A DNA stretch of 64,000 nt from Branchiostoma lanceolatum (taxonomy: Eukaryota; Chordata; Leptocardii; Amphioxiformes; Branchiostomatidae), in assembly GCF_035083965.1 (NCBI RefSeq), contig NC_089727.1, positions 7,383,501 to 7,447,500 of the forward strand, given 5' to 3'. The notes under the pieces are model-generated. The model did no database searches. It was given only the letters and a program-made list of their open reading frames with translations, and was not told the origin of the DNA. The position numbers and the translations under genes were made by a program. Below are positions 976-51,538 of the stretch, one piece after another (position 1 is the stretch's first letter; each line of letters starts with the position of its first letter).

Positions 976-995
976 AAAGGACAATGGGTTAGTTT

Positions 996-7419: not shown

Positions 7420-7790
7420 AAGCCGTTGAATATTCATTAGCGGCCGCAAGGTTTGCACTCGGCTCTAAATTTTCTGTGCCTGTTCCACACGGCCCCAAAA
7501 TAATTCTGACGATTCTCCAAACTGGCGCGAAACTTGTCTGGAGCATGGTGCAAGTGTCAACCACAGATAAACAGAACAGAAATACGACACAAGTTAGTTA
7601 AGAAGAAGTGACTTATGCCCTACTTTCTGAATAAATAATTACACATGAACCATTTGACCTCACGTGACGACATCCAGACAGCTAACACACTGCTGAGTCA
7701 CTCTTTTACGACTCCTGCAGTCGCTGGCTTCTTAAACGCTGAAATCTTTATTTTCTTCATATCAAGAGTAGTCCTAAGCTACCCTGAAGG
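7420..7790 (+). promoter_or_regulatory. 5' flank/promoter region of ZIP copy 2
   Basis: About 370 bases before the start codon are conserved with the orphan copy at 3880-4260. Conserved elements include the metal-response-element core TGCRCNC (TGCACTC at 7454-7460; TGCACAC at 3933-3939) and an E-box CACGTG at 7661-7666 (4137-4142 in the orphan). MRE control by MTF-1 is known for some zinc genes; here it is only inferred from the core and its conservation. Confidence 0.45.
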
Positions 7791-8780
7791 ATGGACCTGA
7801 TCATCGTGCAAGTACTGACCCTCCTCGGACTTCTAGTATCATGTTTGGCGTTTTCTCTGATACCGCTGGCGTTGGCACGGAGGGCGTCCAGAGCGTCAAC
7901 ACTAAGCAGCGGACTGAGGTCCCGCTTTCTCAGCAATGTGAACAGCTTCGTAGGGGGAGTCTTCTTCGCAACCTGCTTTCTTCACTTGCTCCCAGAAGTT
8001 AGGGAGGACCTCGAGACCTCCTTGCGTGGATACGGGATCGTCACGGATTACCCCGTAGCGGAAGCGGTGTCGTGCGCCGGGTTTTTCATCGTTCACCTGG
8101 TGGAAGGTTTGACACACCGTTGTTTACCTCACGACCATGGCCTGCCCCAAGACGTGCCGAGTCGGGAGCGACAACCACACAGCACAGCAGGTGAGGACGA
8201 CCCAACGCGGCCATTGATTAGAAATGAAGCCAAGGTAATGGACTACGGGGCAAACAATCCATTGGCAAATGCACAAAACACGGCGGTCTCACATGACAGT
8301 TCTGTGGTCTCAAGTGACAGTTCGAGTGCGAGTGTCCGAGGAAGAAACGTGCATACATTCCTGCTACTAATCGCTTTAAGCGTTCACGGGATATTTGAAG
8401 GTGTGGCAATCGGTGTCCAATCCTCACAATCCTCTCTTCTATCGCTGTTCTTCGTGGTTGTCGTCCACAAAAGCATCATAGCCCTCAGTCTTGGGGTCAA
8501 CGTGGCAACCGGTGACATGCCATTACCGTATAAGGTCATGACCTGCGTAGTTTTCAGTCTATCGGGTCCTGTAGGACAGGGAATCGGTCTCCTGGTAACC
8601 GACGCGGACGCCGGCGGTCTCGTCACCGGTATTCTACAGGGGGTGGCTACGGGAACTCTGCTACATGTCACCTTTATGGAAGTACTCTCCAAAGAGATGA
8701 AAACTAGTGATATGCTAAATACGTTGTCTGCAGTTATTGGGTTCGCCCTCATTGCAGGATTGACTCTCTTGCCGGAGTGA
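7791..8780 (+). CDS. ZIP-family zinc transporter, copy 2 (complete, intronless)
   Basis: A 329-residue zinc importer of the SLC39A1/2/3 subfamily, close to the usual length (about 310-325). Predicted eight TM helices: about 5-28, 48-67, 89-107, then a loop to 187, and 188-209, 213-236, 247-270, 276-298, 306-327. TM4 carries H199 and E203 in SVHGIFEGVAIG; TM5 carries H226-K227 in VVVHKSIIALSLG, the metal-transport pair of the family. The cytoplasmic loop has a short His cluster (HRCLPHDHG, about 109-117). The ATG at 7791 is the first in frame and gives a hydrophobic TM1. Same strand and about 70% identical by eye to the copy at 1-975, so a tandem duplicate. The lack of introns in both copies suggests a retrocopy founder or intron loss. 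Confidence 0.95.
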   Translation: MDLIIVQVLTLLGLLVSCLAFSLIPLALARRASRASTLSSGLRSRFLSNVNSFVGGVFFATCFLHLLPEVREDLETSLRGYGIVTDYPVAEAVSCAGFFIVHLVEGLTHRCLPHDHGLPQDVPSRERQPHSTAGEDDPTRPLIRNEAKVMDYGANNPLANAQNTAVSHDSSVVSSDSSSASVRGRNVHTFLLLIALSVHGIFEGVAIGVQSSQSSLLSLFFVVVVHKSIIALSLGVNVATGDMPLPYKVMTCVVFSLSGPVGQGIGLLVTDADAGGLVTGILQGVATGTLLHVTFMEVLSKEMKTSDMLNTLSAVIGFALIAGLTLLPE

Positions 8781-12073: not shown

Positions 12074-26227
<14,154 letters not shown>

Positions 26228-27638
26228 TTTTGGCGAAAAAGAAGGACAGAACGAGCCAGGAACGATCGAAAATTTAAATGGCTTCTGGAGACAATCAGCT
26301 GTTCCGGGTCGGCGAGATTCGAAAACGGTAACCAATATCCGGGACCTTTTCGATCTGCACATGCGCAGTCGTCACTGTCATTTGCTACGTCACAGTTCAG
26401 TCATAAACTGCAAGGTGGCGCTGCTGACTGGTGATCAACTACGCCTGCGTTTATGTACGCTCAAATATGAATGCAAAGTCTTTCGTGGCTTTTGTGTTAA
26501 TTCTATGCACAGTTTTACTGATAGACTTCAACTATTCTTCTCTCTTGGACGCAAAGATTTATATGAGGTGCATTTTCCATTGGCAATTAATGTTAGCGTA
26601 GCAGCAGAATACACTGTGAACTACTATATTTAAACGGCAACGGTCTTAATCCCAACATAGTTGGGAAAACAAATGTTACGGCGCTATTCATGAGTATCCG
26701 TCTACGGTATTAAATGACCAGTAACAAGTATCGAGGTAACAACTAACGATTGAAAAATCGGTTTGAATTACACACTTTTTAGGAGTTGACGAGCGTTCAC
26801 TGCTGGCTGAATGACTCGGTGTAAAATACGTAATACTAGTATTCCAGGATTACACTACATATGCAAGAAAATTTTATTGAAATTTACAAAAACCCACACC
26901 TGTGTCTTGCTAGTCATTGTAGTGTCTTTATTCTTGGATAATTCGAGCTAAAACGACGTGTGTTGTTTACAGCGTCTCCACGTTTCACGATATTCATCGA
27001 TCACGCGATTCGATTTCAATGTTACCACGAACTTGAAACGCAACAAGGCGTCGATGATACTTGCAATGTTGCCAGCACTGCACCGGTCGGCGGAATGAAA
27101 ATATTGGGTTTGTTTGTGACAGAAAAACAGTTGTAGAGTGTGTTTGTGTTATTTTTCAAGCTTTAAATGCTACACTTCAGTGTTAGATTATTATCATTAT
27201 TATTATCATCATTATTATTATAGAAAAGCTAGTCCTAACGAGCGATAAATAACGACGTAAGCATAATGCTTAGTCACGACTATCCTGTAAACAAATCAAT
27301 GAAATCGGTTTACTTCCCAATTAGACTAATTACTTAATTACAGCTAGTTGTCTGCCCTTTCCTCCGGCTGGGTGAGGTTTAGCCTGACGAATTGCGCTCC
27401 TAGTGGCCAGCCGGTCCAGTAACCTCCGGCCGAGAGCTTGTGTAAACACAGGCTAGGTGAGGTTGCCAGACCGGTATATAAGACCGGGCCTTGTTGCCAT
27501 GGATACCAAAATGCTGGGCTCTGACTGGTCGTGGACACAAGTGGCTCATTACCTGTTGACTTGTTCTCTATGTATCGAGACCTTGTATCGAGACTGTCGT
27601 ACATTGTACCACCTGAAAGTCAACTCTCCTGTTTTAGA
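26228..27638. other. Intergenic: PIBF1 upstream region and upstream flank of rolling-stone copy A
   Basis: No gene recognised. The first ~200 bases contain the PIBF1 5' UTR/promoter (GC-richer, divergent orientation). An (ATT)n-like stretch lies at about 27187-27222. A TATA-like element is at 27475. Confidence 0.6.
27475..27482 (+). promoter_or_regulatory. Candidate TATA box for rolling-stone-like copy A
   Basis: TATATAAG in a GC-rich context (ccggtatataagaccggg), about 160 bases before the proposed start codon at 27639. Position is compatible with a short 5' UTR. Inference only. Confidence 0.45.
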
Positions 27639-29483
27639 ATGTCTTCTTGTCGAGAAGAGTTCTCCCTGGACGCCCTTCGCCTCCGCTACCACGACAGCTC
27701 GGTCTTCTCTCGCTCACCGGTATGTAGAATTCTTAACCTCAGATCTAGAGTATTTTGGGTACAGTAGTAAGGGAACGTTCAATCAAAAGCATTGTTATTG
27801 TGTACATGTGGCAGATTCGTTAACGTGCTCGAGGTGTGGCTCTCCTCAAACACAGGTCCTATCCGAAGGACGTACCTGACCCTAACCGAAGCTAGGTACT
27901 CATTCCCAACTGAGTGAAGTGGGGAAAGTCGTGTGAAGTGCGTTTTCCAATGGTATACGTACAACACGGCGGTCGGTTGCTATGGCATGTATGGGCAACT
28001 TCCCCCTGTATGGGAGGGGAATCCGGTTATTGGGGCTCCAGTGTGGTCCTAACGCTAATTGAACATCTTTCAAAACATCATGATAGTTTAAAAAACACTC
28101 GCACGTGTCTCGCAAAAAGGAAATGAAATTAGCCAATGTGTATACCTAAAATCCTGGAAAAGGGACAGGCTTTTTCCTAATCTTACATCTTACAGACACG
28201 GGTCATTAAACACCATGGTAAATGGACAAAAGGTTGTGACAACCTAGGATTAAGCAGATATTGTCAATGATCTTTGTGAAGCCCAGCTGGTATCGATGAA
28301 TACCACAAATGCAGTATAAATGTGGAAAAATATCGCACACACTGGCGCGCACATACAACATATATATTGAACAAATCAAAACTGACAGCTGGGAAATCCA
28401 GGTAGTAACGTTAAAGGAGTGCATTATAAACATTTACCTTTAGGACTGCATCTGTAAGCAGCGACACCTATAGCTTCAGTGCAAAGTGAACCTGTAAGAA
28501 TTGATGGTGGCAGCCGGTCACCGAAACGTCGGTTGAATACAACACTCGGTTGTGTACAAAAATATTTTTGTTCAGTGACTTACCAACCTGATTAAACTAT
28601 TGACGGCTCATATTGATTTATATTTCAGTGGTTCCTTGGCCAGGTCGGCTTTGTGGTCTACAGGGCGCTGGTGGCGGCCCTGACGCTGGCTATTCTCGTG
28701 TACCTGCCGGTCGACCATTACCGTGTCCTGGGACGGTCCGACCCGTGGCCGATCGCCCTGACCAACTGGAGCTTCACAGTCCTCACCGCGCACATGGTCG
28801 TAGCCCTGGTCGTCTGCGCGGTCGAGTTCGTATCTAGGAAAGGAGTAAGACCAACCACCGTGGCCAACAAGTCTGAAAACACTGGAGACACAGACACGGT
28901 TCAAACCGATCCAATGACTGAAATTGGGCATGGTGAGGACAGCGACGTAGAAACGATCCAGGACAATTGCGGATTGGCATGGTATCACAAAGTCCACTGG
29001 ATCTTGCACAACACCAGCATCACCGCAGCTTTCTTTGTGACAACGCTCTATTGGACGTTGGACAGTGGGACAGTGTTGGTCAGCAGCATATTGGAACACG
29101 TGGTTAACTCGATCATCGCGCTTTTGGACCTCTTAGTGAGCGGTACTCCAGTGACGATCCTAAACGTGATCTACCCTGTAGCCTACGCAGCGGTGTACGC
29201 TGTGTTCTACGTCAACTACTGGGCCGCAGGGGGGAAGGGAAGAGACGGGTCTACAGCAATCTATCCGGTTATAGATTTCGGGAAGGACCCAGGAATGGCG
29301 TCAGGGATCTTGGTGGGGTTCGTGTTCGTTGCGGTACCCGCGTTCCATTTTCTGTCGTACGGACTGTATCGCCTGAGGGAGCTGGTTGTGACGAAGATCA
29401 AACGAAGGACGAGTCCAGTCACAACGTTGTCGTCCGAATTGGAAACAACCAACTCAAGGGATGTTCATTCCCAAGTCGCCTGA
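27639..29483 (+). CDS. Rolling-stone-like multi-pass membrane protein, copy A (2 exons)
   Basis: Exons 27639-27719 and 28629-29483 (GT-AG, phase 0) give 311 residues. Exon 1 encodes MSSCREEFSLDALRL...FSRSP; exon 2 opens WFLGQVGFVVYRALVA, the usual 'short N-terminus then TM1' layout of the Drosophila rolling stone (rost) family. Family marks are WYKVHWILHN-like (here WYHKVHWILHN), FFVTTLYWTL, HVVNSIIALLDLL, YPVAYAAVYAVFYV, NYWAAGGKGRDG and YPVIDFGKDPG. Six to seven hydrophobic segments; the variable loop after TM2 is acidic and Ser/Thr-rich. Rost functions in fly myoblast fusion, but the biochemical role of the family is unknown. It faces an inverted paralogue at 34450-36487; introns and flanks also align, so the duplication included introns. 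Confidence 0.85.
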
Positions 29484-31410
29484 TTAAATAACGCTCGGGG
29501 TAGTATGTGATTTGCCCTCTAGCTAAAGGCTCCCATAACACCCAAGGACTAGGAGAAACGTTGTGCTTTTTAGGGGGGGGGGGGGGTGACGACCGCTGGC
29601 AAGGGACAAAAAATTTCTGATCTGACATCTGAGTGATAATATTCAAAACAAACTGTCAACTGTGGAACCTGGCATCAATTGTAAGGAGCTTATTTGCATG
29701 ATAAATGGGAAATATTTATGATATGTCACTCGAAAAGGTTAACATCAGTCGGCGAAGGTATGGGGTCGTGGAACTCTAGTTTAACATTAATTGGCCTGTT
29801 CGTCAAAGACAGCCTCTGAACCTGTAGATATCAAAAAGATGAAGTCAACACAGCTACTGAGTATCAAGGTATTGTCAAATGCTAGACGTCCTAATAAGTA
29901 ACTACATGTTTACACATTTCTAAAGATAAATTTCATGTAGCATACAACCACTACTTTCACCTGATTTGTTTGTTTTCCTTGTTTCTCTTTTTTCCACTTT
30001 TCCTTTCTTATTCAATATCAATTTATAGAGATACTTTTTTTGTATAATTTCTTTAACATTTTGTAAATTATGTTTAGTATTGATTATGTGTAGATTAACG
30101 CACTTATTCTGTTCAATAACTTAGAATGAGTTTCATTTTGTATTTCCTCCTATAAACCCAAAGACTGTAAAATCTTATTTCTTTCACATGTGTAACTAAC
30201 TCCTGATTCATATAGATAATTTGTGGTATAAATTTCAACTTATTTCTTTTGTTTATTTTGTTTAGTTTTAATCATGTATTGTTTAAACTATTCATATTTA
30301 ATTCAAGTTCCTTGGGGGAGGCCAAAAAAAAGCCAAATATGTTTCTGCCCCGACCCCCGTATGTATTTTTCTTCTGTACATTGTATTATCATTTTGTTCT
30401 TGATTGTTTGTATACATGTATGTGCAAAATGAACAATTGAAAAATAAACATGTAACGCTACAAACGGTAACATTACACTACAACACCCCTTCGTCCTTGA
30501 AAAGAATCTTATAGGCGTGAAAAGATACAAACGAACAACAAACAGACTTCAGAAATTTTAACATTAAAATGTTTTCTCCCCACTTATAAACAAATTACAC
30601 AAATCATAATATCATCGGGACACTGATGTTTTCTAACGAAGTTGGAGATTGATATGTACTGGTCTGTGTTCATGATAAACACAAAAGTATGAAATGATCG
30701 ATTATAAATCATTATAAACACAAAAGAAAGGAATCGTCATAAATTGTAAGAATTTCAAATGCTATCAATGTATTTCAATATTTTCACATAGTACTGATAT
30801 GCTAGTACTACAGAGGTAATATATTCCCTTTGATAAGTAGCTGCATATACAGGATACAAATGAACGACAACCATACACGTTATCACATCATAAAATTTAA
30901 TCATGAAATTATTTCAACCCGAAACATGATATGATATCATATGATATCATAACACGACATTACAATCAAAATATCTTCGAATTATTCCAAATACCACACA
31001 CATTACACAAGTTCATACAATCATATATAGACTAACGTCATCGTTAGTAATCTCCAAGCAGATCCAACCGGTTGCAATAAAAATTTATTCTGCCAGTTGG
31101 ATACGGTCTTCGCAACCGTTGGATCTGCTTGGAGATAAACCGCTAGTACATCATGGGATGCGTTGAACTGAAGCATTGTCATTGTCCAATTAACAAACAA
31201 AAAGAATCCCGTGCAGCAAGGATTTTCTATAACCTCATTGTGTGTAGTAAGTTTAATGCCTATTCCCTTGACACACGGGGAAATATACATAACACCAGAT
31301 CGTATAGAAAGCTAACAATTTGTTCGTGATCTAAGTATTTCTTTTGAATTGAAAGTATCATCTATTACAATCTTCCTTGCTAGAACTACGTTGACTTTAC
31401 CGAGACGTAG
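29484..31410. other. Intergenic 3' sequence between rolling-stone copy A and the TPR-TIR gene
   Basis: AT-rich, no gene. Contains a poly-G run (29574-29586), AATAAA at 30443-30448 as a possible polyadenylation signal, a gatatcatatgatatc palindrome near 30930-30950, and a small MITE at 31050. Confidence 0.6.
31050..31136. mobile_element. 87-bp MITE with atctccaagcagatc ends
   Basis: Left end atctccaagcagatccaac is matched by gttggatctgcttggagat on the right. The same end occurs at 51331-51538 (both ends) and singly at about 10697 and 57867, defining a dispersed family. Confidence 0.85.
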
Positions 31411-33931
31411 TCAGTCCTTTGTTGAAGGAATCTGCTCCAAAGCTTTCTTCAGTTTCAACCAATCGTAGGAGCCTATTGCATCATGTGACACATCCAGGTA
31501 CGTGATTGTGCGCACTGAAGCCGGTACGTCACACTCGTGAAGCATGATGGGAATGACACGCCCGGACTTGGACTTCAGACTTTCCATCAAGGCCTGTTCT
31601 GTCTCGTCCTTACACCACTCACTGGTGACGAAGTTTGGTGTGAGGATCAGCAGAGTCTTGTAGCTGTTCTCGATGCTGTGAATGATGTTGTCGAACACGC
31701 TTTTCCCTGGTAGGAAGTCTCGGTCAGCTACACATCCTGAAAATTAAGGTATAACATCAAAATTATGGTTTCAATGTAACTACGCTAACCATTACGGACT
31801 TTGTGTGTATATAGATTGTGTAGGCCACTGCCGAGAAAATAGAAATACAACAGGTTTCACAAGAATTTTGTGTCAATGATGTGTGTGTTGACATGGAAAT
31901 TGAAAATCAAAATGTAAAGATGTCATAATATACCTACACCCTTTCTTTACAGCAAATTTATGTGTTCCGATTATTATTTTGATCGAGCTTTATAATCACA
32001 CCTTTGAATCGCATATCCCCTTCCAAGGCTGACAGAAGTGCGTAGTTCACCCAGCCGGCGTCTTTGCTACTGTGTGAGACCAAGAAGTCGTACTGAAACT
32101 CCTGCCCATGACGCGGTTTCTCTACAGTCACCGGGACCTTCACGTGTGTTCCCTGTTCAGAATGTTCTGAGGAAGGGCCATCTATTCCAGATGCTTCGGG
32201 AGCATCTTCTTTTAATAGGTTAGATTGTATCGACGCCGCGCGTTTGCGACAGGCACTGTTGTTGTGCCTGCGGAAACATTTGAGGCAAATTTCGGCAAGT
32301 TGGGAATTGTCACAGTCTATCAGATATTGACACACCTGTATCATCTGACTTCCGAACTTGAAGACACAATTGCGAAGTACCGGCGTGATGTCCGCGTACT
32401 TCTTGAAGCCTTCGTTGATCCAGAAAGCTATTTCGGCGATGTAATGCTCCCCATGACCGTTGCCATGAAGTGTCAAAAGGTTTTTCAGCACCCCATATAA
32501 GTTCCATATGTAGCTCGTGTTGTCAACATCATTTTCAACGGCGCGTTTGTAAGACTCCGCAGCCTTCTCATGCTCTTTTGCAACTTCCAGACATTTGCCT
32601 CTAGCTGCTTGGAAATCAGGGTTGGTAAAACCGTCTTCTAGCTGCAGTGCTAGGGCGAAGTGATCAAGTGCATCTCCCAATTCACCCCAGTCCACCACTT
32701 CTTGCGTTACAGGGTGAATCGCGATCCTGTGACAGACTTTTCCGAGGTGACAAATATTGAACGGTGTCGCTGCACCATCACAGGAGGTAGTGACGTCTGC
32801 TTTCGCCTTCTCAATTAACAGCTTTGAGGGCAATGGTCCTCTAGTATTTCTTGATTGTTTTGCCAACGTGTCGTACTCTCTCATGTTTACGAGGGACCTG
32901 ATGAAATAGGCAACCCAGTTACTTGTACGTCTAGGCATAATATCTATTGACTTGTCCAACATCTGTCGAGCATCTTCGTAGAGATGTTCACCTAGGTACA
33001 TGTGCCCAAACCTTCTGTAGACTTCGCTGTCATTTGGGTTGATTTCCACTGCCTTTTCAAAGCAACTCAAATGCGGTCCAATAACTTGTACTCCTTTTGT
33101 CTGGGGGATTTCTTTGATAAGGTTCTCAGGGGTTTCATAGCCCTTAACTTTCTGTCTGCATTTACTCTCCAGCGCCCCTAGCAAAGCCCACGCTCGTGCA
33201 AGGTAAAATCTACTGTGTTCCCAACTTGGATTTAGTTTGGTAACCTCTATCAAAAGCTCTCGTGTTTCATAGAAACCTTTCAACATGTCGTCGTGTGTCA
33301 ACGTTGGAGCTTTGTGCTGGAAGCCACCGCTGACCTGGTCGAGTCTCAGGTAACATTTACTCAGGTAGAATTTCCAAACAAGACGTTCCCGGTCTATGGT
33401 CACCGTACCGCCGTTACCTACTAATTCTAAGGCCGTTTCGAACCGGTCGATAGCGCTCTTCATCTTCGATACCATATCCTTGCTGTCGTCCCTTACATCG
33501 AATGCAAGTGCGTAGCCCTGTTCCGCAAAACAGCGGGCATTCCTTGCTCTGGCTGCATCGGAATCCTCCGAAAGCAGTTCCTGTAACCGATCTCTACAAG
33601 CCATTTCGTCCTTTGCTCTCATCAGGTGGCCGTATATGAACTGTTTGTTGGCGATAGCGTTCAGATTGTTTTCGTCCCTTTCGGTGAGGCCCTCTATGAG
33701 TTTTCTTGCTTCACCCTGACCGCGTAGTTTGTAGAACGCAAAAACACCCAACAGGTTGGTGATGGCATTCTCCATGGGCCCCGTTTCCTGGTTCAATCTT
33801 GTCTTGAGCTCGTCATACCACGGTGATACGTCCTTCGTGTCCTTGACGAACAGGTCGAGGTGAAAAAAGCCAGGTTTGGGAACGGTAGGGACAGTACCTC
33901 CTTCAGCCATGTTTGCAGGTGTGGTGAACAT
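31411..33931 (-). CDS. TTC22-like TPR protein fused to a C-terminal TIR domain (2 exons)
   Basis: Exons 33931-32002 and 31736-31411 (donor AAAG|GTGTG, acceptor TTTTCAG|GA, phase 1) give 751 residues. The N-terminal ~600 residues are helical repeats resembling vertebrate TTC22: NLLGVFAFYKLRGQGEARKL, NLNAIANKQFIYGHL, ARCFAEQGYALAFDVR and the later VYRRFGHMYLGEHLYEDARQ repeat. The C-terminal ~140 residues form a TIR domain: box 1 YDFLVSHSSKD, box 2 region CVADRDFLPGKSVFDNI, NFVTSEWCKDETEQAL, and a final FW-like region YDWLKLKKAL. The splice site falls inside the TIR domain. Frame is open to about 33973, but the first in-frame ATGs are at 33931 and 33910; the second has a better Kozak context (aacATGgct). 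No signal peptide or TM, so cytosolic. TIR adaptor signalling or NAD hydrolysis are both possible; the WC-x-x-E glutamate is present. Human TTC22 has no TIR domain. Confidence 0.88.
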
Positions 33932-34449
33932 GCCACCTGAGGCGGTGCCAGGCAGCAATGACAGTGACACCAATGGTCACCATGTCTTTAATTTCAAATG
34001 CGCATTGTGAACTCGAGTGTAAAGAGTTAAATGGTCCGTACCAACACAAAACAATGCCCAAAGTGACACTGGAGAGATGTGTTGTTCAGAGTTTGTTTGC
34101 TCGGTTTAGCAAACGTTTCCACCAAACACTTTTATTCGAATGTTACTGTGATGTATAAAGCTAAACACACGTGGTAAGAGCAATGTTACCGTTTGTATAC
34201 GTAACTGTACTGTTCAAAGCTTTAATCTGAGTGAAATACAGGAAGTTCGTTTTAATCTCATGTCATATGTCAGACTTGAAATGTTATGTCCCTTGTCAGC
34301 GGCCCCAAGCAAGGTAGTGTCGGCGTTTAAGTTAAAGTTCCTAAGCTTTGGGTGCTACGGTACCCTTTAACTATAGGGTGCAAATCACTTACTACCAAGA
34401 GCGCGATTTAATCAAGCGACTTTGGAATGAGCAGCATTTATTGAGTTGG
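33932..34449. other. Intergenic between TPR-TIR gene and rolling-stone copy B
   Basis: Contains the TPR-TIR 5' region (33932 upward). TTTATT at 34437-34442 reads AATAAA on the minus strand just after the copy B stop and may be its polyadenylation signal. Nothing else seen. Confidence 0.5.
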
Positions 34450-36487
34450 CTACACCGTTGTGACTGGCCTCGTCCTTCGCTTGATCTTCGTCACAACCAG
34501 CTCCCTCAGGCGATACAGTCCGTACGACAGGAGATGGAACGCGGGCGTCCCAACGAACACGAACCCAACCATGATCCCTGACGCCATGCCTGGGTCCTTC
34601 CCGAAATCTATAACGGCGTAGATGGCTGTGGACCCGTCTCGCCCCTTCCCCCCTGCGGCCCAGTAGATGACGTAGAACACAGCGTACACCGCAGCGTAGG
34701 CTACAGGGTAGATCACGTTTAGGATCCTCACTGGAGTACCGCTCACTAAGAGATCCAGAAGCGCGATGATCGAGTTAACCACGTGTTCCAATATGCTGCT
34801 GACCGACACTGTCCCTCTGTCCAACGTCCAATAGAGAGTTGTTACAAAGAAGGCTGCGGTGATGCTGGTGTTGTGCAAGATCCAGTGGACTTTGTGATAC
34901 CATGCCAATCCGCTATTGTCCTGGATTGTTTCTGCATTGTTCTCATCACTATGCCCAAATTCGATCATTGGAATGGCTTCTACAGTGTCTGTGTCTCCAG
35001 CGTTAGTGTTTTCAGACGTGCTGGCCACGGTGGTCGGTCTTACTCCTTTCTCCACCACGCAGACGACCAGGGCCACCACCATGTGCGCAGTGAGGACGGT
35101 GAAGCTCCAGTTGGTCAGGGCGATCGGCCACGGGTCGGACCGTCCCTGGACATGGTAGTGGTAAACCAGTAGGAACACCAGGATAGCCAGCGTCAGAGCC
35201 GCAACCACCGTCCTGTAGACCACAAAGCCTACCTGCCGACGACACCACTGTTGAAATATAAATCAATATTTGCCGTCAATATAGTCTCATCAGCATGATC
35301 AGGTTGGTAAGATTTAGTAAAGAAGAGATTTCTATATAGTGTGCCTGTGCCTTTGGCAACGAACGCCACTGTACTGAAGAGCGGTTATCTCCCTGGACTG
35401 TACCTGTTTGCGACTTATATTGATTATCATTGCGGCAATTATCCCGTGCATGCGGTGACACCGTGACACTGACGTGCGACGAACGGGTTATATACGTGAC
35501 AAACAAAATGACCGAGCCCGGAATGTCACATCCTCAGTTTCGGCCTAAGATTAGATACAAGATAACTTTATTGGAAATCGCAGTGTTGCCCCTGAATTAC
35601 AAATTCATCAAAAGGAGATTTGCAGTGGTTACGCCTGCTGGTGTCTAGATGGCGCCCACTTGCGCCATGTTGCCAATTGCGATTTTTTTTTTTCTATTAA
35701 AAAAATCGCCATTTCAGTTGCAAATTGGCTCCGATTGGAACCTGTTCGCACCAGTTGGTGAATGTCTTTCACAAACGGTCGCAAATAGGCGCGGCCTAGT
35801 AAGATACCCGCTTAACTCCAGCGGAATGTGGTTCGACGGCGACATGGAGTGGCACGAGTAAATTTAGCTTCATGCCCGACGGCTAATTGTAAATACATGT
35901 ACGTGTAACACTGACATGATAGAATGTTAAAATGACAAAACGTCCTAGACTTGGTGTCGTTCTCAAGATCGTAGCTTTACAATGTTGAAGTTTTCGACAC
36001 GTCGGTGAAACTCTCCTTGGTTAACTCTTTTATTCAATCATTCTGACAATACTTTGGCTGATTTTTGTCATTTCTTCAGCTCAGATAATGGGTAGTGACA
36101 CGGAATCCCCCCTCCCATACTAGGCACCAAACATGCGTATACGAAATGTCTCTGATGCACTTTAACCTATTTAGGGTAAACGCATGCTTACTAGCTGGCA
36201 CTTTCTTGTATATATGCTGTATGCTGTCAGAAAATGATAATCTTGATACCATCGTGTTAAATGAAGGACCAGTGTCTGAGGAGAGCCATACCTCGAGCAC
36301 GTTAAGGAATCCGCCACATGTACACAATAACAATAACAATATTCTTAACTAAACGTTTATTTCCTACTGCAGCCAAAATACTTTAGATCTTTGGTTAAGA
36401 ATTCTACATACCGGTGAGTGAGAGAAGACCGTGATGTCGTGGTGGCGGAGGCGAAGGGCGTCCAGGGAGAACTCTTCTAAAAGACAT
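34450..36487 (-). CDS. Rolling-stone-like membrane protein, copy B (exon 1 apparently frameshifted)
   Basis: Exon 2 (35247-34450) is intact: 265 residues plus stop, starting TGG like copy A and highly similar to it (WYHKVHWILHN, FFVTTLYWTLDRG, YWAAGGKGRDG). The region homologous to exon 1 (36487-36412) keeps the ATG and the donor CCG|GTATGT, but lacks 5 bases present in copy A after ATGTCTT. Its length is 76, not 81, so ATG-initiated translation would enter exon 2 out of frame. In the conserved frame no upstream ATG is found before a stop. Either another first exon or a downstream Met is used, or the gene is losing function, or the assembly has an error here. The variable loop after TM2 also differs from copy A by small in-frame indels. 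Confidence 0.7.
35640..35725. repeat. Short inverted repeats in copy B intron
   Basis: atggcgcccacttgcgccat (35649-35668) is an imperfect palindrome. It is followed by gccaattgcgatttttttt and its inverted partner aaaaaaatcgccatttcagttgc. Probably a small foldback insertion, since the copy A intron is about 255 bases shorter. Confidence 0.6.
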
Positions 36488-37430
36488 TCTAAAACAGGAG
36501 AGTTGACTTTCAGGTGGTACAATGTACGACAGTCTCGATATATAGCGACAAATCGTTCAAACTAAGGAGGCAACCACAATATATAGGTATATGTGGCATC
36601 TTTGTATTTGTCTCAGACCATGGCAGCTGTATACTAGTATGTCGAATAACACAACAAATATGTTGCTATGTTTCTTTTAGCTGTATTTGAGGGCCATGAA
36701 CACACACACACACACACACATACACACCTTCAAACAGAGTAAGCAGCCGCGGCAGCACATATGCTTTCTAATATGAAAAACAAAACTTTGTGCAGTGACT
36801 TTCTGTGTAGCATAGCAAACGTTCCCCAGTAATCTAGAATGTGTGCAGTGAATATATTCTCACCTGTGAGGCACAAATCGGACGACAGTCATAGAGATAT
36901 TTCAGTGCAGATCCGCCACCTCGGTATTACTTCTGCATGAAATGACGTCTAACTTGTCGGTTTACTTTCGCGTATTGCGAGTACTAGTAAGACAATTGGA
37001 ATGTCACCTCTGACTTGGGAGTGGCGATAGTTAACAGCTTACAGATGTATCTGTTTTGGCAAGCTCCAATAGCCCTTAAGGGTCGCTCCTCTTTCAAATA
37101 ATTTCAATAAATAGAAACTAAACTAAAGTAAATAAATTACTGAATGGTGAGTCAAACGTAAATAACTTCTTGCACCCAGTTTACGTCAAAAGCAGCACTA
37201 ATGCCTTGGGTGCCATAGTACATGTACACAGTTAGTACTGAAGTAGAACTTTCGATTATTGCACCTTTGGTCCTAGACGTGCTAAAGTTTTGATTTTTGT
37301 TGTTGTTGACAGATAGCATTTGATGTCAGGAACAAGTGACATAGGATTGGGCCCCACGCAGCTTGTTCTTAAACTGCAGGGGCGTTTTTCTACTGGTACT
37401 GCAATGTTCACAGACAGCTGACCGGGGAAT
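36488..37430. other. Intergenic between rolling-stone copy B and GPCR
   Basis: Shares sequence with the copy A upstream region for about the first 70 bases (gacagtctcgatatatagc). Beyond that only a short (CA)n at 36701-36720 is notable. No gene seen. Confidence 0.55.
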
Positions 37431-40400
37431 CTATAATCGTGTCTCTTCCATGTTCTTCCCTAAGAAACGACTGTACAGCATGGCTCCCTGCGCTCTACAA
37501 GAAGTTTGGCGCTCCCCCATGGGGATTCCGTCTGGGAACGGCGATGTGCTGGTGTCAGTCCGAACACAAGCTGCTCTTCTTGAGGTGGAACGGGCTTGGG
37601 TGGACGGCGTGGCGACTCTTGAAGCGACACCTAGCGACACATCAAACCTGTTCAGTACACAGGTGCGCATGGTCAGCTTCTTGGCTTCCTCTCGGAAGGC
37701 CCTGTTCAGCCCATTGTAGATGAAGACGTTTAAAATCCCATTACACGTGTATAGCCAAAGCACAACAAACTCCACGTCAGGATGGGTTGGATACTCCAAC
37801 ATATTTTGCCATATAGCCAGGGCACAGTACGGCACCCATGTTAGGAGAAATGCTACAGTGATGGCGGCGGTTGTCTTGGCTCCCTGAAGTTTGTCCAGTG
37901 TGGCCCGTCGGTTGTAGAGGTGGATGTTCTTCAGATGACGCAGGGCCACTGCGTACACTTTGCAGTGGAGAATGCCCACTACCATCACCAGGACTGCGAT
38001 GAAAGCGACCCCGAAGGCCAGCGGAATCACTTCGCCGAGCTCGAACGTACAGTGCGCCGAGGAGGGCAGGAAGCGGAATCTACAGGAAGAAATGTTAGTC
38101 ATGAATAAGACCATTCGTAGATTCGAGTACGCATGTGCAGTGTCAAAGGTGAAGGCCCTGACATGTAAACAAGGCCCGTCTGGGCATTGTTATTTAAATC
38201 GAGACAACAACTACGACAACTGTTTACAAGCCAGGGGCGCCTTCACCTTTGACACTGCACATGTCAAAGACACAGACACAGACAGACAGAGAAACAGAGA
38301 CAGAGAGAGTTGAATGTAGGCCTCAAAATATATTTGTAATTAGCAGTGACACACCAGGCATCAATGTGTGGTAGACGTTGCCTAAATGCAAAATGCACGG
38401 ATCTCACCTTTTGTACACGAAGATGGGGACTGTGAAGCTTATTGCGGGCACCACCCAGGCAGCCACGATCATGGCGGTGCACAGCTTCGGCCCCATGATG
38501 TTCTGGTACCTGTTGATACATAACAACAGGTCGAGGTCGAAGGTCGAGGTCGTCTACCCTAGCGACTTTCCTTGGTACTGAAACTTCCAGTTCCAGATAA
38601 CATTCATATCTTAGGAGTCCAATGTAGCAGACATAGAGCAATACAACTTTGACACGTCCATTATGAATAATGGCGAGAAATAAATCAGCCTGGAATATTC
38701 AACAACACGTTCAAACAAAAGGAAAATATTCGGAAAACTTTCGAGAGAATGTGAAACGTTACCTCATGGCGTGTACGATGAGGATGTAACGGTTGATGGC
38801 GAGGCCAACCAATGAGAACGACGAACCCAGTGCGCAGACGCAAGAGATGAACGTCGCAAGCTGGAAACAATCAGGAAAAACAATATGTCATCGTCATCAA
38901 AACTCTGTCAGCATTGATAAACTGAAAAGACCATGCTATTCAGGGCAAACAAAATGGGGTTAACAACACCATTGCGGAAAGAAAGCCACCATTGATTTAC
39001 AGCTTTTTCTATCGTAGGATTTTCAGCAAGGCTATGGCAGAACCGTTGGTCGACAAGGATCTGCCCTCAATTTGATGTCGTAACCCCAACGCAAGGAGAC
39101 ATTGTTCGGCAAACACAGAATAACCAATCGGCTCGCCACTGAAGCGTCGCCAAAAAAGGGCATTGGCATTATCAGTTTGACAAGTTACCTATTTCGTATT
39201 CAGAACACTTCGAACGGGTGAAATGTCGTGAGAAAGCTCTTTTGGAACGACTTAGCGTTCATCCAGATTTCGACGAAGTAGTCTACCTGAGGACCTCTTG
39301 ACATTAAGCGTGTGTGTGTACGTTAATATACAAGCAGAATCTTCAGCCGGCCGACTGATACGATTTTGCGCCCGTGGAGATCTGCTGGGAGATTATGTGT
39401 ACGTGACAATGTTACGTCACCGCGTAATACGTTGTGTAATGTTATGTTATGTCATACATACGGTGTTACGTATTTTTGTCATGCCTGAATTTTCTTAATG
39501 AATTTGGTTGCAAGTGGTGTGTAATTTTGATGTATAATGCAATATGATATAATTCTGCAGACTAGCTGGCGTTTGACTTCATTTTCTGTTAGGACCGGCC
39601 TGATTAGAAACGTCAACCATGTTTTTCAAGAAAACCAACCTACATGAACACAGAGGTTATCATGGTTCAATTCCTGGTTCAAAAAACTGCGAGCTGAATG
39701 TTTTTAAGTAAGACAAATCCATGAATGTACGATGATAGCAAGTGGGGTGCCGTCGTAAAAGGTAATAAACTAGATTTCTAATGATACATAATACACTGCA
39801 ATTGATAAAGCAACAACGATATGATCAACGGAACTAATTTTGCAACGTTATGTGTTAGGTTTAGTATTTCTACATATAGTACGTCCGATTGCAGAAAACG
39901 TTTTGACCATCAGTACCATGTTCACCACACACTATGCCTTCCATTTCAACTAGTCAGTAGATACTTTGGTCGCCGTGTGGCCAAAGATTTGACAGATCGC
40001 TTAACGAATTTCATAGATAAAGAACGAAAATGACAATCATTGTTACATATTCATGTATTATATATATATGGCCTCCTTTGGTCAATATTGACCACGGTAA
40101 TCTTGAATGGCCCCTGTAACAACATATAACTAGCTATAGGGAGCACACCCTAGCCAAAAAAAGGACAGTGGGAATGGCCCTTGTAGCAATGTGTATAAAC
40201 TGTGTATATTTGTGAAATTGTAAAATGTGTTGTTGTGCCATGTATGTCTGAATAAAGATGAAACTAGAATGGCAACATTTTCGGGAAAATGCAGGATATT
40301 CCCCTCCCATTACCAACACCTCAAATATGACATCCTTAGCATATTGACTGTAAGGGTATTATGAAGTTTCTGCATAAATTATGCAAAGGAGGCCCTCATT

Positions 40401-42258
40401 AGCCTAATGTATGTCCAGGTTTTCTGACCTTTCCTAATGGTACCTACAGCTCAGATATGACATCCGTAGCTTTTACGGTAAGGGAAATACAAGTTTATGC
40501 ATAAATTATGCAAATAATGTCCTCATTAGCATAATTTATGGCCAGGTGCATTCACCTTTCCTTATGGTACCTACATCTTAAAGATGACATCCGCAGCTTT
40601 TACGATAAAGGAAATACAAGTTTATACATAGATTATGCAAATGATGTCCTCATTAGCATAATTCATGGCCAGGTGCATTCACCTTTCCTAAAGGTACCTA
40701 CATCTCAAAGATGACATCTGCAGCTTTTACGGTAAGGGAAATACAAGTTTATGCATAAATTATGCAAATAATGTCCTCATTAGCATAATTTATGGCCAGG
40801 TGCATTCACCTTTCCTTATGGTACCTACATCTTAAAGATGACATCCGCAGCTTTTACGATAAAGGAAATACAAGTTTATGCATAGATTATGCAAATGATG
40901 TCCTCATTAGCATAATTCATGGCCAGGTGCATTCACCTTTCCTACCTACATCTCAAAGATGACATCCGCAGCTTGTACGGTAGGGGAAATACAAGTTTAT
41001 GCATAGATTATGCAAATGATGTCCTCATTAGCATAATTCATGGCCAGGTGCATTCACCTTTCCTAAAGGTTCCTACATCTCAAATATGACATCCGCAGCT
41101 TGTACGGTAGGGGAAATACAAGTTTATGCATAGATTATGCAAATTAGGTCCTCATTAGCATAATTTATTGTCAGGTGTATTCACCTTTCCTATAGGTACC
41201 TACATCTCAAATATACCATCCGTACCATTTAACATAAGGTACATATAACTTTCTGTAATACCATTAGTAGTGTACCACCGCACATCTACTTGGTTTTTGG
41301 CAGAAGAAGAAGAAGAAGAAGAAGAAGAAGAAGAAGAAGAAGAAGAAGAAGAACAGGCAAGCAAAAACAGTATATCCCCCTTCCCACTGGAAGGGGAATA
41401 TAAAAAACAGTCGCCTTTCCAATAATGCTTTTACGTCGTGCACGATGCATCATATTTCAACTATGAAATCAAGGGTCACACAAATCCAATTTTGGTCGCT
41501 CCCCTGTCGCTCAGCGATCGCCGTCGAGTGGAAGGGTGGTCTAACGTTAAAGGCAACCAAAGCAATATTAGGGCCCGAAAATCGGATTTTGAAAGTCAAT
41601 TCATTTAGTCATTTCTATACATGATTAGTGCAAACAACACTATCACAATGTACAGCAACGTCCATCGTGCAAAAATACGACGTTGTTGCGATGTGAAAAC
41701 TCACTGAAAATCGCCGCCGGGGGTTTTGTAGGCTCGCGGAACTACGGGAATCATGCATCGTACGGCACGTTTTTGCGCGGTTTTGAAATTACCAAAGTAA
41801 GTTATAACGCAAATGTGCTAACGTTAAATAGTGTTAGCAAATGTCACGACCATAGAGATTTCAGCATTTTTCACTTCCATATTTTGGGCCCAAATATTGG
41901 TTTGGTTGCCTTTAAAGCCATCAAACCCACTCATATACACAGTGTGGAGACTTACCATGCAGATGACATCACCGTACATCCACTGCCCTGTCCAGGCCGG
42001 CCTCAAGCTGAACGGGATGACCAGGAGACCGGGCAACATGTCGGCACACGCCAGGGAAACAGTCAGGTACCCCGTGTAGTTTCTCAGCGACGGCGACCTC
42101 AAAATCACGACCACGACGAAAGTATTTCCTAAGACAAGCCCCAGGCCGATGAGGCTGACGAGCATCACCTTCAGTTCGGCGGGAAGGACGAAGTGCCATT
42201 CCGGCTGGGACGAAGACATGGCCACGCTAGTGTCGTTTGCGGGTCCAGATCCGTTCAT
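37431..42258 (-). CDS. Class A (rhodopsin-type) GPCR, orphan, 4 exons
   Basis: Exons 42258-41956, 38860-38763, 38509-38408 and 38079-37431 join in phase (GT-AG) to 383 residues. N-terminus has NGSG and NDTS glycosylation sequons. TM1 holds GLVLGNTFVVVVIL (N1.50), TM2 SLACADMLPGLLVIPF (D2.50), and ECL1 has a Trp (WTGQWMYG) before the conserved Cys. TM3 ends in NRY instead of DRY. TM6 has FLLTWVPYC (family FxxxWxP). TM7 has NVFIY where NPxxY is usual, followed by helix 8 FREEAKKL. TM3 (CMVLATFISCVCALG) lacks the Asp that binds amines, so it is not a typical amine receptor despite the TM2 likeness. The tail is Ser/Thr/Arg-rich. Ligand unknown. The 3-kb first intron carries a satellite element. 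Confidence 0.88.
38132..38263. mobile_element. MITE ~132 bp in GPCR intron 3
   Basis: Perfect inverted ends of about 25 bases, left catgtgcagtgtcaaaggtg and right cacctttgacactgcacatg, with an additional aaggcc / gcgcctt match. Non-coding. Confidence 0.85.
40270..41404. mobile_element. ~1.1-kb element with the 127-bp satellite, GPCR intron 1 (inverted relative to 24141-25826)
   Basis: Seven or so tandem units of the satellite seen in PIBF1 intron 1, here reverse-complemented. The tacctacatc markers fall at 40568, 40695, 40822, 40943, 41070 and 41197, that is, 127 bases apart apart from one 121-base step. Units carry gcataatttatggccaggtg and cttttacggtaagggaaatac. A (GAA)n run of about 50 bases follows (41302-41353), the complement of the (CTT)n at the start of the other copy. 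gatattcccctcccatta near the left end is the complement of sequence near the right end of the PIBF1 copy. Confidence 0.8.
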
Positions 42259-42487
42259 CTTTCGAATAGTTGTTGTTCAAATGATGGAAAAGAGCACACG
42301 CACACACGAGTTTCTGACAAAGCCGAAAATCTACCAGTATACCAGATATCAAAAGAAAAGGTTACTGAAGCAACTGGATGGATTTTGTAAACGATCAGGC
42401 GTTTCAGGTAGCATCCACTACCTTTCCAGAGTGCCTTTGTACGACTGATGTAGTATACAGCCAGTATACGCGATTTATGAACATGAA

Positions 42488-45932: not shown

Positions 45933-46749
45933 GCAGTTTAAAAACGCTTTTTTCTTGTTACCTGTAATGTTGCAAGTTGCCAAAAATATAAAACGTAATT
46001 CTGAAAATCGTTCTACAAATATTTGATCATGACCCGCTGCTCTACAAACTATTTTTAGAATATAAATCCTGACAGAAAACTTCCCAGCAATGTATTTTAT
46101 GAAATGCAATACTACACAATGTGTGAAATGTTTGAAGCCCAATGTTTAGATGCCGGTAGATGATTTGCGTAATTGGTAAATCATGCTTGACTTTGAAGGG
46201 GTAAATCGAATGATTGATATTCTTCATTTTCACTTCTTCACATCTTCTTATCTGACTTTGGAATTGATTTTGGCAGTCTACATTGGTATCGTTTTCCAGG
46301 GTTTTTTTTTCTTCAAAAATCTACGGCATATATCTAATGATTCTACAGCTTTTGTATGATTTACAATATAGTCGAAAACTATTTTTTGAAAACAGAAGAA
46401 AAGTAATGGGCGCGCAGATGTCACATTAACATGGCCTAATACATGAGACATACTAATTGATGACAGGTGGGACATCTATGTATGTCTTATTTGCTTAATC
46501 AATGCAAACTTGTTGTGCATTGTCTTGCTGACATTTTACTTTTTTTCTTTTGCATCTACATTTTTTGGTTAGTTGCACCTCTGTACCATTCCCAAAAAGG
46601 GTCCCCGAAACAGTATCTTTATATGTTGTGAAACATCCATTGACAGTGAACTGGGACACCTGCTTGTTATTTTATGTTATAATTATGTTACAATAGTTCA
46701 GGCTGATTGAATAATTCCTGCTCATTGTCTCTATAGGTGTTAGGACAAC

Positions 46750-49293
46750 ATGGGGAAAAAGCTGAGACACCTGCTGATTTTCCTTCTCATCATCATGAAG
46801 AAGCCCAACTTTCTGGAAGCTGGACATCGATGCAAATGTTCAATATCCTCACCCTGTAGAACCAATGCGCCTTTGGGGTTTTCACGACAGACTCCTTGTT
46901 GCGATTGCAACAGGCTGGGCCTCACCAACATCCCCCAGGACCTCCCAAAAAATATATCATTTTTATATTTCGGAAATAATCAGATGACCAGATTCCCAAA
47001 GAATCTTAGCAAATCCATAAGACACTTGGATCTGCAAAGCAATCGGATATCTTGTATTCAGACAGGAATACTCTCAAATCTACCACAGCTTGCAAAGTTG
47101 AATCTGTATAAAAATGGGATAACTAACATTAAGCCAGGTATATTCTCAAACCATGATAACCTTTTCCAGCTATTTTTGACTTCAAACCACATAACAGAAC
47201 TCCAAACGGGTACATTTACAAATCTAACCCACCTCGTAGTGTTGCATTTGGATCACAACCAGATAAAGGACATCCAGGCAGGTACATTCTTTAATCTACC
47301 CGTGCTATCTGTCGTGAACCTGTCCTCCAACCAAATCATTTCTATCCTGCCAGGTACATTCATTAATCTACTCAATTTAGGATTCTTGTGCCTGCGAGCA
47401 AACCAGATCTCAGTCCTTAACCTTTCTGCTTACGGCATGTTATCAGCAATCAAGAATATATACATTGACAATAACCCCTGGCAGTGTGATTGTAAGATGG
47501 TCCCCTTGAGGCGAAAAATGAACGGGTCTGATTCTTTCGTAAACAAGTTTACTTGTGCCCAACCTGACAACTTTCGTGGACAAAAGCTTAAAGATATTAG
47601 TCCCGAAGACCTGGTCTGTAACGAGACCGCCACATCAACACTAAGTCTGCCTGTTGATCTTCATACCTCATTCACATCATCTGCAGTGCCAACATCTTCT
47701 TCATCTGGCAACGCAGAAAGTAATAATAGCAGAGCAGCACATCCCTTTGGCTCCACATCTGCCACACAGCCCTTTGATAACCAAGTTGAAGGTGTTAATA
47801 ACAATGGCACTGCAAGTTTTCGCTCTCACTGGTACTTCAAAACCAATGCTGGTTCAACGGCACGTCCAAAACCGACAACCTTAACGGTCACTTCCGACAG
47901 TTCCCATGAATCTGATCCTATTTTCCCTCTCCCTGTTCTCATTGGCTTTATCACTGGTCCAACAGCTGTCATTGTCCTGATTGGCAGCATCATTCTCACA
48001 ATCTGGTACAAGAGGAGGACCAGGCATCCTCCTTCGGCCCCAAATCCCAATGTTGTTTGTAGCAACTCGAACTCCACAGCTGGTGTAACGACTAGCGGTC
48101 GTGATCAGACAAGGCAGAGTCACTCTCATTCTACACCCACTCAATCTTTGGATGTTAGAAATCTATCACATAATGCACTATCATCTGCCTTGCAACCAAA
48201 TCCTTTCTACGAAGATGTAGACACACAACCACAGGACCCAGCGTCTATAGAAATGACCAGTGGCCACGATCAGACAAGCCAGACTCAGGACACCACTGAA
48301 CTTAGTAACGCAAGCATCACAGTTACTGGAATGGTTAGCGGTCATGATCAGACAGCTCAGGGACAGTCTCAGGCTACCATTCAATCTCTGAAAGGTGGAA
48401 ATCTAAAACATGAAAAAGTGCTAGCTGCCTTAAAGCCAAATCCTATGTATGTTGTAACTGTGGGAACACCACCAAAGGACCCAGCACCTACCGGTGGTAA
48501 TGATCAGACAGGGCAGGGTCAGTCTCTGGCCATCACTCAATCCACCCCAAACACTACGGTAATGACTTGTGATCATGATGAGACAATGCAGGGCCAGTCT
48601 CATCCAACCACTCAGTCCTTGGAAGTTACAAATCTATCGTATAACACAGGGTTATCTGTTTCACAGCAAAATGGTCTGTATACTGGTGTGGGTTCACCGC
48701 CAAACAGTCCACTATCTAGAGGTCCAAACGGGAAACGTTATGAAAAAAATGCTCTTGAAGCTCAAAATCACATCAAATCCCCTAAGAATGAACCTCCAGA
48801 ACTTACCCCACCCGATACAAATTCTGATTCCCTGCCAGCAGTCTCAGAGCCTCACCTGTATGAAGATGTGGACTCACCACAAAATAAGCTGAAACTGAAA
48901 AGTACAGGTCAAATGCAGTTTCCTAAAAACAAGATCTTCGGAACAGCCAACAAAAACGAAGCCACTACAGATGAGCCTCCCCCACTACCCCCACCTCGTA
49001 AAGATGCCAGCACCTTGCAAGAGGTCTCAGAGCCTCACCTGTACGAAGATGTTGACTCACCACACAAACCGAAAGGTATAGGTCAAGTGCAGTCTGCTGA
49101 AAACAAGATCTTTGGAACAGGCAACAAAAACAAAACCACTACAAATGAGCCTCCCCCACTTCCCCCACCTCGTAAAGGTGCGTATACCCTGTTAGCTATC
49201 TCACAACCACACCTGTATGAAGGTGTGGACACGCTGCAAAAGAATTGCAAACCCAAAAATGCAGGTCTCAGGCAAATTGCTAAAAGTAATTAG
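46750..49293 (+). CDS. Single-pass LRR receptor with repeated YEDV / proline-rich cytoplasmic tail
   Basis: An 847-residue type I membrane protein in one exon. Signal peptide ~1-24 (LLIFLLIIM core), Cys-rich LRRNT ~28-55, about seven leucine-rich repeats ~66-235 of the type FxNLxxLxxLxLxxNxI, LRRCT ~243-290 (NNPWQCDCKM), Ser/Thr-rich stalk 291-390, TM ~394-418 followed by KRRTR. The tail (~419-847) has degenerate repeats DQTxQxQS, six Tyr motifs with Val at +3 (YEDV at 487, 704 and 764, YVVT/YTGV variants, YEGV at 823) and two PPPLPPPRK motifs (743-751, 801-809), typical SH2- and SH3-ligand patterns. No TIR domain, so not a Toll receptor. Such LRR plus signalling-tail receptors are plausible in innate immunity or adhesion, but the ligand is unknown. 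Stop TAA is followed by a decayed extra repeat. Start chosen for the signal peptide. Confidence 0.88.
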   Translation: MGKKLRHLLIFLLIIMKKPNFLEAGHRCKCSISSPCRTNAPLGFSRQTPCCDCNRLGLTNIPQDLPKNISFLYFGNNQMTRFPKNLSKSIRHLDLQSNRISCIQTGILSNLPQLAKLNLYKNGITNIKPGIFSNHDNLFQLFLTSNHITELQTGTFTNLTHLVVLHLDHNQIKDIQAGTFFNLPVLSVVNLSSNQIISILPGTFINLLNLGFLCLRANQISVLNLSAYGMLSAIKNIYIDNNPWQCDCKMVPLRRKMNGSDSFVNKFTCAQPDNFRGQKLKDISPEDLVCNETATSTLSLPVDLHTSFTSSAVPTSSSSGNAESNNSRAAHPFGSTSATQPFDNQVEGVNNNGTASFRSHWYFKTNAGSTARPKPTTLTVTSDSSHESDPIFPLPVLIGFITGPTAVIVLIGSIILTIWYKRRTRHPPSAPNPNVVCSNSNSTAGVTTSGRDQTRQSHSHSTPTQSLDVRNLSHNALSSALQPNPFYEDVDTQPQDPASIEMTSGHDQTSQTQDTTELSNASITVTGMVSGHDQTAQGQSQATIQSLKGGNLKHEKVLAALKPNPMYVVTVGTPPKDPAPTGGNDQTGQGQSLAITQSTPNTTVMTCDHDETMQGQSHPTTQSLEVTNLSYNTGLSVSQQNGLYTGVGSPPNSPLSRGPNGKRYEKNALEAQNHIKSPKNEPPELTPPDTNSDSLPAVSEPHLYEDVDSPQNKLKLKSTGQMQFPKNKIFGTANKNEATTDEPPPLPPPRKDASTLQEVSEPHLYEDVDSPHKPKGIGQVQSAENKIFGTGNKNKTTTNEPPPLPPPRKGAYTLLAISQPHLYEGVDTLQKNCKPKNAGLRQIAKSN

Positions 49294-51331: not shown

Positions 51332-51538
51332 TCTCCAAGCAGATGTAGTGTTGGTCTGGGTTAGTATTTTATATAAATTTTTCAAAGCTTTTTATACCAA
51401 CTACATCTCCTTTTTATATCTCTTCCTGGTGGTTCGTATTTCTCCTAGAATTGGAAGAAGAAAAGAAAAGATTTTCTAAATGCCACAAAAACATGCGTGA
51501 AACATTGCAATGCCAGATCCTTATATCTGCTTGGAGAT
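51331..51538. mobile_element. MITE ~208 bp with atctccaagcagat ends
   Basis: Begins atctccaagcagatgtagt and ends atatctgcttggagat; the same family as 31050-31136. It ends only about 40 bases past the EXOSC8 stop, so it probably lies in the EXOSC8 3' UTR. Confidence 0.8.

Follow-up and report, generated by a model that had tools for sequence, protein, structure and literature searches.

A probable TPR-TIR fusion gene in Branchiostoma lanceolatum with a TIR domain of the TLR/MyD88 type

Does the minus strand at positions 33931-31411 of the window, the 64-kb stretch of Branchiostoma lanceolatum DNA analysed here, encode a single protein joining a TPR region to a TIR domain, and if so, what type of TIR domain is it and what might the protein do? 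The first-pass annotation had placed a gene here with two exons joined to give a product of 751 residues, and translation across a GT-AG intron confirms it; the landmarks quoted there (NLLGVFAFY, ARCFAEQGYALAFDV, YDFLVSHSSKD, and FVTSEWCKDE) are all found in the product. A profile search also bears out its reading of the domains, with TPR and a C-terminal TIR both scoring above the curated Pfam cut-offs.

Gene structure and the TPR-TIR joint

The sequence reads as a two-exon gene, with the 751 residues counted from an ATG at 33931. Translation and open-frame analysis place the possible start codons, the entire TPR region, a linker, and the first 30 TIR residues in exon 1 (33931-32002), and exon 2 (31736-31411) encodes the remainder of the TIR domain, from Box 2 (RDFLPG) to the C-terminus, and a TGA stop, as judged from translation and Pfam. 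Between them lies a phase 1 intron of 265 nt (32001-31737) of the form GT...TTTTCAG, delimited by splice-site and base-composition analysis, with a G+C content of 32% versus approximately 48% in exon 1. Initiation at 33931 is possible, and a second ATG at 33910 (residue 8) lies in a better context, with A at -3 and G at +4, and would give a product of 744 residues.

Several features of the predicted protein bear on whether these exons are correctly joined. The TIR_2 profile scores 57.2 bits with exon 2 alone versus 67 with the joined product, and the 30 TIR residues of exon 1 by themselves yield no Pfam match with an E of 0.1 or below. Against the TLR2 structure (1fyw), residues 643-751 score 56 bits and the joined TIR 75.8, the alignment of the latter having a single one-residue gap ahead of the splice junction and none at the junction itself. 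A signature of the TLR group (described below) straddles the junction with the correct spacing, exon 1 supplying E637 and exon 2 C645 to G654. When eight donors were paired with 16 acceptors, 20 pairs left the frame open, and by eye the printed list of these contains the signature in the 32001/31737 pair only. The 32001/31737 splice is thus supported at the sequence level by the gain in TIR_2 score, by the lack of a gap at the junction in the TLR2 alignment, and by the signature that spans it.

One exon encodes the TPR region together with the linker and Box 1 of the TIR domain, and because the TPR-TIR joint lies inside this open exon 1, it cannot have arisen from an annotator merging two gene models. 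It had been argued from the splice site inside the TIR domain that the fusion is old rather than an annotation artefact; the second part of this argument stands, but from the position of the joint inside exon 1, and the first does not, as an intron at that place dates nothing. It is very improbable that we are looking at two neighbouring genes, one for the TPR protein and another for the TIR, or at a pseudogene. Retention of the intron would bring an in-frame stop shortly past the donor and soon after Box 1, the unspliced open frame ending at 31958, as such a reading would have it; against it, the TPR region and Box 1 share one exon of 643 open codons, a length with a chance of approximately 6.5e-18 at the base composition of the window, and a clean GT-AG junction restores the TIR domain, ungapped at the joint. 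From its sequence, the locus appears to be a true animal gene of two exons, encoding a well-formed fusion. The 1.9-kb first exon, with no intron in the TPR part, may perhaps stem from a retrocopied TPR gene.

The type of the TIR domain

The TIR domain begins in exon 1 at 32092-32002 (minus strand) with Box 1 (YDFLVSHSSKD), helix A (W627-V628), and the acidic E637, as identified by Pfam, PDB alignment, and motif reading, and continues in exon 2 at 31736-31414, where Pfam and motif reading place C645, Box 2 (R649-DFLPG), W684/E688, and W736. Two Pfam families match it well above their cut-offs: TIR_2 at residues 617-729 (67 bits; cut-off 28) and TIR at 616-710 (57.3 bits; cut-off 21.3). Among the best 60 of 63 PDB sequences matched by the joined domain at E up to 1, the top ranks are held by TLR2 (3.7e-20), TLR6, and TLR1, with TLR10, Toll-receptor-related 2 (4w8h), MyD88 (2.4e-10), and TIRAP (9e-10) following, and a metazoan TIR-STING fusion is also matched (5e-09). 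With residues 643-751 alone, TLR6 is at the top, slightly ahead of TLR2.

Box 2 reads RDFLPG, and its acidic partner, E637, sits 12 residues ahead of R649. A survey of TIR domains, in the parts of it available to us (PMC7075850), reports Box 2 of the RDFLPG type for the TLR, IL-1R, TIRAP, and MyD88 groups, and gives for its group 3, the TLR group, a signature around strand B, E-x-(xx)-x5-C-x-H-x-R-D-F-x-x-G, in which an acidic residue closing helix A comes first and the remainder falls in strand B and the BB loop. The amphioxus product has six of these seven residues; the H is replaced by A, such that the strict pattern is unmatched and a relaxed one, E-x(6-8)-C-x-x-x-RDF-x-x-G, fits. In the same survey the H shows the lowest conservation among the seven (PMC7075850, available parts). 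Since Box 2 is RDFLPG, six of seven signature residues are kept, and TLR2 ranks first in the PDB, the domain is, by its sequence, of the TLR/MyD88/TIRAP type. Other parts of it are less well conserved by eye: Box 3 is half kept, with D735-W736 instead of F-W, and the strand-E tryptophan position is occupied by V726, so that in the aromatic cluster of the TLR group (W/F13, W121, F129, and W130) W627 and W736 are kept, W121 is V726, and F129 is D735. Given the half-kept Box 3 and V726, TIR-TIR assembly may differ from that of the TLR group. A comparison of the TIR domain with prokaryotic genome contigs in GTDB yielded 23 stretches fitting the pattern, none confirmed at E 1e-3, a result that is not informative on animals.

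The TIR domains of TLR1, TLR2, TLR6, and MyD88 belong to the closest known likenesses: they are among the best PDB matches and share Box 2, and the TLR-group signature is present here at six of seven positions. The amphioxus product differs from these proteins in its remaining parts. Pfam finds in it no LRR family and no Death domain at E up to 1, and no membrane span is seen by eye, so that it has neither the LRR and membrane span of a Toll-like receptor nor the Death domain of MyD88.

The other layout with which the product can be compared is that of SARM1, in which helical repeats are likewise followed by a C-terminal TIR (PMC7075850, available parts), and the TIR could accordingly be an enzyme: a trigger acting on the TPR part would cluster the TIRs, which would cleave NAD+ as in SARM1. 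This is improbable. Besides the layout, it is favoured by the spacing W684-x-x-x-E688, the same as that of the ligand-binding W71/E75 of SARM1 in the available parts of PMC7075850, a comparison made by motif and not by alignment to SARM1; in the PDB alignment, however, TLR2 shares this W and E (SEWCKYE), and the motif is for that reason non-discriminating. Also on its side are weak matches to Thoeris ThsB, plant TIRs, and CRISPR-associated TIRs. PADLOC returned six weak hits to defence-system proteins, among them several TIRs, with ThsB the best at 2e-08; these count against an adaptor role, as do the NAD-using TIRs Cat1, RPV1, and RUN1, which match the domain in the PDB at 1.5e-4 to 1.3e-3. 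SARM1, by contrast, appears neither among the 60 PDB matches obtained with residues 643-751 at E up to 10 nor among the best 60 of 63 obtained with the entire TIR at E up to 1. It has ARM and SAM domains where the amphioxus protein has TPRs, and by eye its BB loop is different: the SARM1-type pattern E-(R/K)-L-E-A-G is replaced by RDFLPG, and of the three BB-loop residues implicated in SARM1 catalysis in the available parts of PMC7075850 only the glycine is kept. The domain being of the TLR/MyD88 type, with SARM1 unmatched by residues 643-751 even at E up to 10, NAD cleavage appears to be the weaker reading. The first-pass annotation had likened the layout to those of NAD-cleaving or adaptor proteins; the NAD-cleaving half of that analogy is weakened by the type of the TIR domain and by the lack of SARM1 among the 60 PDB matches to residues 643-751.

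The TPR region and the question of TTC22

The TPR region occupies residues 20-569 or thereabouts (33874-32225, minus strand), as delimited by Pfam, a PDB search, a comparison with a provisional TTC22 sequence, and a low-confidence structural model, and is followed by a hydrophilic linker at about residues 570-613 (32224-32093, minus strand; limits by eye) that leads to the TIR domain. TPR_19, TPR_1, TPR_2, and TPR_17 exceed their Pfam gathering cut-offs, with the best stretches at residues 290-323 (33064-32963, minus strand), 416-479 (32686-32495, minus strand), 441-468, and 444-468. At E up to 1 the region matches 46 PDB sequences, mostly over residues 286-340; these are designed consensus TPRs, APC3, PEX5, and similar TPR proteins, with IFIT and TTC22 absent among them, and the Pfam search of the product returned no TTC22 entry. 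An AlphaFold2 model of the exon 1 product, built with no relatives supplied, is mostly helical from residue 16 to 569 at low confidence (mean pLDDT 48.3, pTM 0.30), which agrees with the presence of TPRs and proves little. Comparison of the region with viral sequences in IMG/VR gave two stretches fitting the pattern, none of them confirmed, and this too is not informative on animals.

The first-pass annotation had proposed a likeness to vertebrate TTC22 on N-terminal landmarks, which we likewise take as a lead. Residues 20-487 are colinear, at 31% identity and 152 bits, with a provisional version of the human TTC22 sequence, one written out when the query was already known and hence not independent of it, and the best of 200 shuffles in this comparison reached 25.4 bits. 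Kinship of the TPR region with TTC22 is plausible from this colinearity, as a lead only. The human protein differs from the amphioxus product in having no known TIR domain.

Vertebrate TTC22 is a little-studied protein. If the kinship holds, the amphioxus gene would provide it with a pointer to a TIR signalling pathway, and would extend the known set of shuffled TIR proteins in marine invertebrates by a single protein that connects a TPR scaffold with Toll-type signalling. One could go further and suppose that TTC22 started out as, or at some time acted as, the recognition half of a protein that signals through TIR, such that a TTC22-type scaffold is wired directly to a TLR-type TIR in invertebrate chordates and vertebrate TTC22 is the surviving half of an innate-immune sensor; we regard this composite proposal as a long shot. 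More likely, the gene is just one among numerous lineage-specific TIR shuffles, in which case it matters less; interest in it would rise if orthologues reveal an old TTC22-TIR family.

Proposed role, known relatives, and genomic neighbourhood

We favour a cytosolic innate-immune adaptor or sensor, with a probability of roughly 0.6. A cytosolic location is suggested by the lack of a signal peptide or membrane span by eye; the TTC22 descent, the TIR partners, and the signalling output we infer. The N-terminal TPR superhelix, probably derived from the TTC22 family, would bind a partner or ligand, upon which the C-terminal TLR-type TIR would pair with the TIRs of TLRs, MyD88, or TICAM-like adaptors and pass a signal to NF-kappaB or caspase pathways. 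The main rival, with NAD cleavage ranking third, is that the protein is a regulator or decoy, its own TIR binding those of TLRs or MyD88 and its TPR scaffold holding them so that the pathway is damped. No death, kinase, or other output domain is among the 12 Pfam families listed for the product, Box 3 is altered by eye, and a competitor role has been suggested for TIR-only MyD88-like proteins of the oyster (PMC4346834, available parts), all of which would suit a decoy; the intact Box 2 with its BB-loop proline, however, would suit active signalling as well, and we consider damping unlikely.

An adaptor or sensor of this composition would have company. TIR-TPR is a named class among oyster immune genes in a figure legend of PMC4346834, and the abbreviations given for the Aplysia immunome (PMC9334734) include it too; by class name, the Pacific oyster and Aplysia likewise combine TIR and TPR in one animal protein. 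That novel TIR combinations are a known feature of amphioxus, as the first-pass annotation had remarked, agrees with a study that counts, in its available parts, 134 TIR proteins and 28 combinations involving TIR domains, of which 20 are amphioxus-specific (PMC2575513); in two lancelets, TIR domains are reported as over-represented among dispensable genes (PMC12373286, available parts). Further afield, and again from the accessible portions of each source, TIR proteins that are cytosolic and carry ankyrin or armadillo repeats are present in choanoflagellates (PMC6040629), a TPR-containing region is coupled to TIR and other effectors in a bacterial conflict system (PMC8195603), and the actinobacterial group 6 TIR proteins also combine a TIR with multiple TPRs in more than 700 residues, but with the TIR at the N-terminus and Boxes 1-3 not conserved (PMC7075850). 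No paper treating TTC22 and TIR together was found in the literature searched, which comprised main texts and few subscription papers, and the available parts of PMC6321704, PMC11797021, PMC6526094, PMC9440496, and PMC12314368 contain no TPR-TIR fusion. The main text of PMC2575513, in its available parts, does not mention TPR or tetratricopeptide; the exact TPR-TIR pairing may already stand in its supplementary partner-domain table or in an amphioxus immune-repertoire paper. The gene looks like one more shuffled innate-immune adaptor, of a kind already reported from marine invertebrates.

The TPR-TIR gene sits in a spacer of about 4.6 kb between two inverted copies of a Rost-family gene (rolling stone, PF21534), at 27586-29654 (plus strand) and 34244-36540 (minus strand), identified by Pfam and by comparison of the window with itself; two long pieces of these copies share 85 and 87% DNA identity, and a third, of 62 bp, 77%. 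A tblastn search of the window at E up to 10 found no second TPR-TIR copy, returning the gene's own exons and two short matches (E 1.7 and 7.4), and Rfam reports nothing in the window at gathering scores. The inverted Rost genes are themselves flanked by a 127-bp minisatellite, in arrays of approximately seven copies each and opposite orientation at 24682-25580 and 40311-41222. Downstream of the TPR-TIR gene, a motif scan identifies polyadenylation-signal-like hexamers on the minus strand, ATTAAA at 31257-31252 and a further AATAAA starting at 31089. Around the latter, approximately 275 bases 3' of the stop codon, lie two perfect 19-bp inverted arms (ATCTCCAAGCAGATCCAAC) with 49 bp between them (31050-31136); the arm recurs with three mismatches at 51520 and 57863, giving four matches versus 0.01 expected, and the structure looks like a small foldback element.

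Other genes are present in the window. At 46744-49293 (plus strand) there is an LRR protein in which a membrane span is apparent by eye; its long tail has repeated tyrosine motifs, such as LYEDVDSP, and is encoded in part by a 174-bp tandem repeat; from its sequence it looks like a receptor. A ZIP zinc-transporter gene (PF02535, 176.6 bits) lies at 7788-8780 (plus strand) and is resembled by positions 1-994 (plus strand) at 75% DNA identity over 1016 aligned positions. Finally, similarity to rhodopsin-type GPCRs (PF00001) is seen on the minus strand at 37431-38189, corresponding to model positions 134-260, and at 41824-42276, corresponding to positions 1-70, and these two pieces are possibly exons of one receptor gene that spans the minisatellite array.
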